Shown one piece after another: positions 44,333 through 47,052 of a stretch of 64,000 bases of DNA. The DNA is from Thermoanaerobaculia bacterium. Its GTDB lineage: Bacteria > Acidobacteriota > Thermoanaerobaculia > Multivoradales > JAHEKO01. Numbering within the stretch: position 1 is the first letter of the stretch; every line of letters starts with the position of its first letter. A program made the translations under genes and the position numbers. Below the pieces are notes generated by a model, which saw nothing but the letters and a program-made list of their open reading frames with translations, was not told the origin of the DNA and made no database searches. Location of the stretch: positions 1-64,000 of the forward strand of contig CALZIK010000143.1 in the NCBI GenBank assembly GCA_945787635.1, written 5' to 3'.

Positions 44333-45430
44333 TCATATGCGCATCGGCATGATCACGCAAAGATAGCGTGTATCGCTTCCATCGACGGGATAGCCGATGC
44401 ATTGCGTGTTCTCGTCTTTGAGATCGAGCCGGATGTTCTCGGTATCCACGGCAGACAGAAAATGAACCAGGTAGTCCGGATTCATTCCGATCTTGAGCTC
44501 GTCACCCTCGTACTCGCAGGGCAGCTGTTCGGTCGCCTCTCCCAGGTCGGGATTCGCGGCAGTAATCACGAGGTTTCCAGAGGTCAACTCCAGGCGGACG
44601 GCGCGCGCGCGATCACCGGTCAGCAAAGCCGCTCTCTGCACGGCCTGAGACAGGGCCTGCTTGTCGAAAACGGCCTGCTTATCGTTTTCCTTGGAGATGA
44701 CCCGCTCATAGTCTGGAAAGGTTCCCTCCAGGATCCGACAAACCAACTCTCGGCTTCCCAGCCGGAATGAGAGATGGTGCTCGCTCTTCCTGAATCGCAG
44801 ATCACCGTCGTCCTCGAAGCGTTGAAGTTCTTGAAGCGCTTTTCTGGGAACCAACACACCGTCCGACGCGGTCGCGCCCGATAGGTCATTTTCCACCAGC
44901 GCCAGCCGATGCCCATCCGTCGCCACCAACTCCAGTCCGCCGTCCTTCAGCTTGAGCAACGCCCCGTTCAGTTGAAACCTGGACTCTTCGGTCGAGACCG
45001 CAAAAATGATCCGCCCTATGGCTTGCTTCAGCAGTGCGAAAGGAATCGACAACTCCCCGTCCTCGGGTACTTCCGGAAGCGTCGGAAAGTCCTCGGAGGC
45101 GAGCCCGTTGATCTTGAAATCCGATTGCCCGGCCTCGATCCTCAGCCGCCCTTCTTCCTTCAACTCGAGGTGCACCTCTTCGGCGCCTACCGCGCGAATG
45201 ATCTCGAGAAACTTGCGCGCCTGAACCGCGATCGACCCCTGACTGGCCACCTCGGCGTCACACGAAGATGTCAACGAAACGTCGAGATCCGTCGAAGCGA
45301 AATGGAGCCTGTCGTTTTCGGCTCTCAACAAAATATGCGAGAGCACCGGAATTGTCGTGCGCCGCTCGACGATGCCCTGCATGGGAATCAACTCGCTGAG
45401 CAGGTTGGAGCGTTTTACGCGAACTTCCAT
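44333..45430 (-). CDS. dnaN: DNA polymerase III sliding clamp (beta subunit)
   Basis: A 365-aa protein with the three repeated clamp domains. It opens MEVRVKRSNLLSEL and ends in VIMPMRI, the canonical C-terminal clamp sequence that lines the protein-binding pocket. The third domain includes YLVHFLSAVDTENIRLDL. The dimeric ring tethers polymerase III and other partners to DNA. ATG 45430 is chosen, with AGAGGT in the purine-rich stretch upstream. It lies downstream of dnaA with a 232-bp spacer that appears to hold origin elements. Confidence 0.97.
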   Translation of the reverse strand: MEVRVKRSNLLSELIPMQGIVERRTTIPVLSHILLRAENDRLHFASTDLDVSLTSSCDAEVASQGSIAVQARKFLEIIRAVGAEEVHLELKEEGRLRIEAGQSDFKINGLASEDFPTLPEVPEDGELSIPFALLKQAIGRIIFAVSTEESRFQLNGALLKLKDGGLELVATDGHRLALVENDLSGATASDGVLVPRKALQELQRFEDDGDLRFRKSEHHLSFRLGSRELVCRILEGTFPDYERVISKENDKQAVFDKQALSQAVQRAALLTGDRARAVRLELTSGNLVITAANPDLGEATEQLPCEYEGDELKIGMNPDYLVHFLSAVDTENIRLDLKDENTQCIGYPVDGSDTRYLCVIMPMRI

Positions 45431-45662
45431 TTTCTTCTACCTCTTCTTCTACTCAGTAGGAAGGAAAAATAACATAGTAATAGTAGTAGGGCCTGAGGAA
45501 CACGCGGAGGAGACGCCAAGGCGCCTAGGGGATTCGAGGTAGCGACGTCGCCGCCGGTGGAAAGATCTGTCGAAAAGTTGTGGGGTAATGTGCAAGGACG
45601 CACCCGTTCAAGTCTGTCCGCAGGTTTTCCTCAGATTATAGGTTGGGCGAAATCGCCTGGTC
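45431..45662. other. dnaA-dnaN spacer with DnaA-trio element: probable oriC unwinding site
   Basis: On the + strand at 45475-45489 there are five consecutive triplets, TAG-TAA-TAG-TAG-TAG. Read 3' to 5' these are the DnaA-trio pattern (A/G-A-T) bound by single-strand DnaA filaments. A GC block GGCC (45490-45493) lies on the dnaA side and an A/T-rich stretch (about 45465-45474) on the dnaN side. This is the known order boxes, GC cluster, trios, unwinding region. Candidate DnaA boxes toward dnaA are weak; the best is a 7-of-9 match TTTTCGACA on the minus strand near 45569-45577. Confidence 0.6.
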
Positions 45663-46952
45663 TCAGGAAAACTGCCGAATCAGATGGTCGAGGGTGCGTC
45701 CAAGTTCTCGGTCTTCGGCACGTAGACGCTCGATCTTCTCGACCGAGTACATAACGGTCGAATGATGTTTGTTGTTGAAATGCTTGCCGATCTCGGGGTA
45801 CGACAACTCCGTGATGCGCTTGCACAGATACATTGCGACCTGACGGGGAAAGACAATCTGCTGGGTGTTCTTGCGGCTCTTGATCTCTCCGACCTTGAGC
45901 CCATAGTGGTGAGCGACAGTCTTGATGATGTCGGCGGCGCTGACCTTGGCGTCCTCCGGCAATATGTCTTTGAGGGTTTCCTTGGCGACATCGAGAGAGA
46001 GCGAGCGGCCGGTAAGGGAAGCAAAGGCGAGGACCCGGTTTAGCATTCCCTCGAGTTCACGGATGTTGGATCGCACCTGGTGTGCGATGAAGTTGGCGAC
46101 TTCGTCGGGAAGAAAGAGTTGTTCAACGTCCGCCTTCTTGCGGAGAATGGCGATCTTGGTTTCGAGATCGGGTGGTTGAATGTCCGCGATCAGGCCCCAC
46201 TCGAAGCGGCTACGAAGGCGCTCTTCGAGATCTGGAATGTTGCGCGGCGGAGCGTCGGACGAGAGGATGATCTGCTTTTGTCCCGTGTAGAGCGTGTTGA
46301 AGGTGTGGAAGAACTCCTCTTGAGTCCTCTCCTTGTTCGCCAGAAACTGGATGTCGTCGACCAGTAGCACGTCGATGTTGCGGTAACGCTCGCGGAAAGA
46401 CGGCATCCGATTGAAACGCAAGGAACTGATGAGATCGTTGACGAACTGCTCAGCGGCGAGATACATGACCAGGAGTTCGGGGTGTTCCGCCTGGATGCGG
46501 TGGCCGATTGCGTTCAGAAGATGGGTTTTTCCAAGACCTACACCACCATATAAGAAGAGGGGGTTGTAGCTTCGGAACGGGGATTCAGCCACCGCCCGTG
46601 CCGCGGCATGAGCGAACTGATTCGAGTTGCCGACGACGAAGGAATCGAAGACATAGCGCGGATTGAAAGACTGCCGGTTCGACTCTCGCGCCGGGGAGGC
46701 TTTGACGGCGCCGTCATCCACCGAGAAAAGGACTTCGCAAGCGCCGTCGTCGAGACCCACGATAGCCCGATCGACGGCGGGGCGATAACTGGCTTCGAGG
46801 GTGTGAAGAAACCGCTGGTTTGGAGCCAGCAGGACGAGCCGGCCGGTTTCTTCGCGTCCCAGCCGTAACGGCTGAAACCAGGTCGAGAACTCCTCCGGAT
46901 CAAGGTCGCGTTGGAGTTGGTTACGAAGGCGAAACCAGAGGGAATCGGACAT
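45663..46952 (-). CDS. dnaA: Chromosomal replication initiator DnaA
   Basis: A 429-aa AAA+ initiator, compact because domain II is short (about residues 83-95). Domain III has Walker A GGVGLGKT (136-143), Walker B LLVDDIQFL and the arginine-finger region RLRSRFEWGL. Domain IV carries the DNA-binding signature HHSTVMYSVEKIE near the C-terminus. It opens oriC and loads the replicative helicase. ATG 46952 is chosen. A DnaA-box inverted pair lies between the likely promoter and the start codon, consistent with autorepression. Confidence 0.98.
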   Translation of the reverse strand: MSDSLWFRLRNQLQRDLDPEEFSTWFQPLRLGREETGRLVLLAPNQRFLHTLEASYRPAVDRAIVGLDDGACEVLFSVDDGAVKASPARESNRQSFNPRYVFDSFVVGNSNQFAHAAARAVAESPFRSYNPLFLYGGVGLGKTHLLNAIGHRIQAEHPELLVMYLAAEQFVNDLISSLRFNRMPSFRERYRNIDVLLVDDIQFLANKERTQEEFFHTFNTLYTGQKQIILSSDAPPRNIPDLEERLRSRFEWGLIADIQPPDLETKIAILRKKADVEQLFLPDEVANFIAHQVRSNIRELEGMLNRVLAFASLTGRSLSLDVAKETLKDILPEDAKVSAADIIKTVAHHYGLKVGEIKSRKNTQQIVFPRQVAMYLCKRITELSYPEIGKHFNNKHHSTVMYSVEKIERLRAEDRELGRTLDHLIRQFS

Positions 46953-46970: not shown

Positions 46971-46991
46971 TTTTCCACAGCCTGTGGAACA
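46971..46991. promoter_or_regulatory. Inverted DnaA-box-like pair upstream of dnaA
   Basis: TTTTCCACA (46971-46979) and TGTGGAACA (46983-46991) face each other; each departs from TTATCCACA by one or two bases. Within them an 8-bp inverted repeat, TTCCACAG and CTGTGGAA (46973-46980 and 46982-46989), is perfect with a single central base. The pair lies 19 bp upstream of the dnaA ATG, within its leader, suiting both origin function and autorepression of dnaA. Confidence 0.55.
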
Positions 46992-47052
46992 ATTGCGGAA
47001 AATCTGCGACAGATCAGCGCCGCTTTTGGCTCTGCCGAACGGGGCGCGCGCG

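Follow-up and report, generated by a model that had tools for sequence, protein, structure and literature searches.

The 64,000-nucleotide stretch analysed here (hereafter the window) contains the chromosome replication origin of a member of the Acidobacteriota (class Thermoanaerobaculia), and the spacer between its dnaN and dnaA genes very probably carries the basal unwinding element (BUS) of this origin, formed by DnaA-trios, a GGCC block and DnaA-boxes. We put the probability of this reading at about 0.88, strand opening at the element being deduced from work on Bacillus subtilis. A previous sequence-only reading had located a probable, B. subtilis-like strand-opening site at the same place, and our analysis supports it, with opening itself again taken from the analogy. 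The spacer (45431-45662) and its surroundings comprise the following features:

44333-45430, minus strand: dnaN, sliding clamp (TIGR00663)
45459-45489, no strand assigned: A/T-rich unstable stretch, probable strand-opening region (lowest nearest-neighbour stability in 64 kb)
45466-45474, minus strand: likely extended -10 of dnaN, TGTTATTTT, abutting the trios (from conservation)
45475-45489, plus strand: five DnaA-trios, TAG-TAA-TAG-TAG-TAG (from sequence, uniqueness in the genome and conservation in relatives)
45490-45493, plus strand: GGCC between the trios and the proximal DnaA-box (from sequence; 4-bp G/C spacer across the order, GGCC in other families of the phylum)
45494-45502, minus strand: proximal DnaA-box TGAGGAACA (2 mismatches to TTTTCCACA in reverse, 3 to TTATCCACA)
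45503-45511, minus strand: putative second, degenerate DnaA-box CGCGGAGGA, 13 bp from the trios, at the place of NGCGGAAAA in relatives
45568-45576, minus strand: DnaA-box-like site TGTCGAAAA (1 mismatch to the lineage box; seen in genus members too)
45625-45633, plus strand: DnaA-box-like site TTTTCCTCA (1 mismatch to the lineage box; present in both genus members too)
45663-46952, minus strand: dnaA, initiator (TIGR00362, 527.8 bits; aligned to 8btg)
46971-47002, no strand assigned: second DnaA-box cluster, upstream of dnaA (box matches, similar clusters in relatives), with TTTTCCACA at 46971-46979 (plus), TGTGGAACA at 46983-46991 (minus) and TGCGGAAAA at 46994-47002 (minus)

The trios are read on the plus strand, which is antisense to both dnaA and dnaN, as TAG (45475-77), TAA (45478-80), TAG (45481-83), TAG (45484-86) and TAG (45487-89), and GGCC directly follows the last of them. 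These are the letters that had been reported for the dnaA-dnaN spacer, and they are confirmed at 45475-45493. A BUS is expected to carry at least three contiguous trios with a middle A on the 3'-GAT-5' strand, and five are found here. The run TARTARTARTARTAR, i.e. (TAR)5, has a single match on both strands of the 4.36-Mb assembly, at 45475-45489, and the reversed control pattern has none in the same assembly. Likewise, when the dnaN-side portion of the spacer was dinucleotide-shuffled 5000 times, five consecutive trios never arose.

Skew and DNA stability both point to the same place. The source genome is a draft of 203 contigs, so its own skew was computed over the 64-kb window and a one-contig relative was sampled in addition. 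Within the window, cumulative GC skew reaches its global minimum at 45454, 21 bp from the trios, and the best change point lies at 45450; the skew changes sign from dnaN to dnaA, despite their shared coding strand. In the relative (G056, a member of the order with a single 4.63-Mb contig), sampled skew changes from negative to positive at dnaA-dnaN (2.727 Mb) and changes back roughly half a chromosome away, in the interval from 0.26 to 0.48 Mb. The skew inflection that had been proposed as a check is thus observed twice, and the minimum expected of an oriC lies at this locus. Third-position skew of gyrA and gyrB departs from the strand pattern, and single-gene skew was therefore given no weight. 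The DNA at the trios is also unstable, as expected of a BUS: the least stable 30 bp of the 64 kb are 45459-45489 by nearest-neighbour stability, and the least stable 60- and 100-bp stretches cover the trios as well. The A/T-rich sequence that had been noted on the far side of the trios is borne out by 32% G+C in 45431-45489, versus 64% for the window.

Conservation of the triplets in relatives, also suggested as a check, holds in the genus, the family and much of the order, and further families of the phylum show this layout too. In relatives, an A/T block is followed by trios, about 4 bp of G/C and two co-oriented DnaA-boxes, for example TAG-TAG-GAG-AAG GGCC TGTTGAAAG TGCGGAAAA at one locus (L057). 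Each of the three genus members has at least four TAG/TAA trios, with weak boxes that differ between members. We applied the published rule (trios at most 16 bp from a box, PMC8287927), with lineage boxes, to 49 spacers (48 from the order and one outgroup). Of these, 24 conform to it; the corresponding numbers are 4.6 for shuffled sequences and 2 for the reversed strand. At least three TAG are present in 17 of the spacers, versus 0. About half of the order falls outside the strict trio rule, chiefly genus g11 of family f3 and family f9. As only about TAG-AAG is left at the G/C block in genus g11 (L058, L054, L055, L056 and L062), opening there may depend on other sequence.

Beyond the order, a scan of 396 genomes of the phylum for TAGTAGTAG-N3-5-TGNGGA returned 23 matches, a number not above that of the reversed-pattern control; the informative part is their location, as 15 of the 20 matches fetched (window counted) lie just downstream of dnaA. 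Several of these dnaA-side matches carry the exact letters TAGTAGTAGGGCCTGTGGA. Among 60 spacers from outside the order, 18 contain three T?G triplets in a row, followed in 11 cases by box-like sequence. One genus of the order has lost the adjacency of dnaA and dnaN (L028 and L120 in G037, L121 in G030). In G037, dnaA has been relocated and inverted, and trio- and box-like sequence is still found upstream of dnaN. The G011 assembly has two dnaA-dnaN pairs (L006 and L110, on contigs 210 and 8) with a trio element at each, for which contamination and a second replicon are candidate explanations.

The DnaA-box of this lineage was derived in the present analysis, without recourse to DoriC, and its consensus is TTTTCC(A/G)CA. 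With at most one mismatch, TTTTCCACA occurs 100 times in the spacers of relatives (2.5 expected) and TTATCCACA 34 times (1.8 expected). A BUS calls for a box with at most 2 mismatches no further than 16 bp from the trios, and TGAGGAACA lies 4 bp off with 2 mismatches to the lineage box TTTTCCACA. When the E. coli box TTATCCACA is used in the same rule, the window (3 mismatches in TGAGGAACA) and most relatives fail, and this strict version was dropped in favour of the lineage box. The next nine positions, CGCGGAGGA, occupy the conserved place of the second box and show 3 mismatches to TGCGGAAAA and, counted by eye, 4 to TGTGGAAAA; a tandem co-oriented second box is present in 57% of published BUS cases. 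We also scanned the spacer with a tandem-box profile from which the window's genus and the trios had been left out; its highest score falls at 45494, 4 bp past the last trio. At that fixed place the score has a P of 2e-4; with position ignored, 6.5% of shuffled spacers (0.065) reach a maximum equal to the window's. Free alignment of the box profile without trios mis-anchored about one third of the spacers, which diluted column counts, and it was set aside as a main argument.

As judged from their letters, the predicted trio-side boxes of the window are weak, yet at the right place, and those of two other genus members are likewise weak or displaced. The BUS likeness described earlier stands, with an amendment: the DnaA-boxes that it requires had been left unnamed, and those found here at 45494-45511 are degenerate. 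Clusters resembling 46971-47002 are found upstream of dnaA in nine relatives, and the window's cluster is a candidate for a second origin sub-region or a site of dnaA autoregulation.

The trios of relatives vary at their middle base, TCG being frequent. We counted runs of three or more T?G triplets, leaving the middle base unconstrained, in the first 110 bp of 61 spacers of the order. Such runs occur in 25 of the 61 (1.15 expected) and never on the other strand. Their middle base is A in 69 cases, C in 25, T in 3 and G in 2, i.e. A or C in 94 of 99. Relative to T?G triplets at other positions of these spacers, A and C together are enriched (p = 6e-24), and so is C alone versus G and T (p = 5e-6), both values being optimistic because the species are related. 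Outside the order the A/C trend is alike, with C too rare for significance. In B. subtilis trios, A and C are the two middle bases tolerated in a 2023 study, and C is the best substitute for A, which was ascribed to the amino group common to both (PMC10721633). We lean towards the view that trios across the order are T(A/C)G, G and T being barred as only A and C would offer the amino group read by the Asn187 equivalent.

The names of dnaA and dnaN are given by NCBIfam matches above cut-off. When DnaA is aligned with its B. subtilis counterpart (8btg), 9 of 10 trio-contacting or oligomer residues are identical (E183, N187, I190, N196, R202, K222, E223, E228 and R264 in B. subtilis numbering), and I193 is replaced by L. 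The ISM and arginine finger are present as N172, I175, L178, R187, K207, E213 and R249, which match B. subtilis N187, I190, I193, R202, K222, E228 and R264, respectively; the roles of the B. subtilis residues in binding trio bases or backbone and in joining subunits are documented (PMC10721633). In that species, K222 and E223 contact the two bases box-side of the first trio, G G (PMC10721633), and the same two bases are found here. The domain IV motif is KHHSTV in all order members with a readable motif, in contrast to RDHTTV in B. subtilis. The motif difference goes along with the change of box from TTATCCACA to TTTTCC(A/G)CA and might be the reason for that change.

By analogy with B. subtilis, DnaA bound to the tandem boxes (45494-45511) would pass further DnaA subunits over GGCC onto the plus strand, where each subunit pair would take G and A from a single TAG triplet. 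The oligomer would then extend leftwards over the trios into A/T-rich 45459-45489, and would keep the strands separated for helicase loading. Binding order, nucleobase capture and strand opening are in this scheme transposed from B. subtilis work; the trios, their spacing, the predicted boxes at their conserved place, the unstable DNA, the skew minimum and the DnaA residues form its sequence-based part.

The A/T-rich flank is likely to be the extended -10 of dnaN as well, a role that the sequence-only reading, correct in its description of this side, had not included. The motif AnnATAnCA on the plus strand (TGnTATnnT on the minus strand) adjoins the trios in 31 of the 61 spacers, versus 1.5 in shuffles, and an TGCTATNAT-like block is also present upstream of dnaA in relatives. 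A sigma-70 promoter scan gave no full match, and the -10 assignment rests on conservation. The opening element and the dnaN promoter thus probably overlap, which could link initiation to dnaN expression. On the minus strand at 45424-45453, TAGAAGAAGAGGTAGAAG precedes dnaN; it has a trio-like look and covers the ribosome-binding site, and in relatives it is mainly GGAGAAG.

This promoter could account for the whole conserved block, an extended -10 with its upstream sequence, leaving the trios as mere promoter spacer with no role in opening. The frequency of AnnATAnCA beside the trios and the like element upstream of dnaA would fit. We nevertheless find this very improbable, as no trio run adjoins the -10 upstream of dnaA, the scan yielded no complete sigma-70 promoter, and the 3-bp periodicity, the A/C middle base, the fixed 4/13-bp box spacing and the skew minimum would be left unexplained. 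It is also improbable, if not quite to the same degree, that the trios are real and opening mainly takes place elsewhere, for example at the 46971-47002 cluster, the downstream element being secondary. The boxes of that cluster are exact or have 1 mismatch, better than the trio-side boxes, and the cluster is conserved; moreover, B. subtilis and Helicobacter pylori have bipartite origins, in which a box cluster lies on each side of dnaA. Against this, no trio run borders the cluster, and the skew minimum and the least stable DNA are at 45454-45489. Finally, slippage can produce short tandem triplets, and the trios might be a chance or functionless repeat of this kind. This is hardly credible for a (TAR)5 run that is unique in the genome, and it is contradicted by conservation: place, strand and spacing are constant in many genera, with copies that vary in sequence.

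We thus retain a BUS, and consider the element a well-supported further example of the known type, not a new type. It shares with the B. subtilis BUS (incC; DnaA-box 6/7, G/C block and DnaA-trios; PMC6669920, PMC10721633) its dnaA-dnaN position, the strand and polarity of the trios, the G/C spacer, the co-oriented boxes (the second a candidate), the A/T-rich far side and the trio-contacting DnaA residues. It differs in its boxes, which are weak and of the TTTTCC(A/G)CA type, in the likely extended -10 of dnaN adjoining the trios and in the domain IV motif of DnaA. A BUS has been predicted in 1755 of 2070 bacterial origins (PMC8287927). Like members of that set, the element has at least three NAN trios at most 16 bp from a box and a spacer of about 13 bp to a box, the commonest published value; unlike them, the source species would be missed if the E. 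coli box were used alone, and the TCG trios of relatives are not counted by the NAN rule. Among the papers searched in full text, none names both DnaA-trio and Acidobacteria.

These results locate the replication origin in an Acidobacteriota lineage with a precision of tens of bases. Two points may concern specialists, namely the weak boxes of the window's genus and the A/C pattern at the middle base. In the latter, natural trio variation among relatives provides independent agreement with the structural and mutational result from B. subtilis, and it suggests that the published search rule should admit C at the middle base. If trios are indeed T(A/C)G, a search rule based on a middle A would be too narrow in G+C-rich lineages, and genuine origins would be missed.
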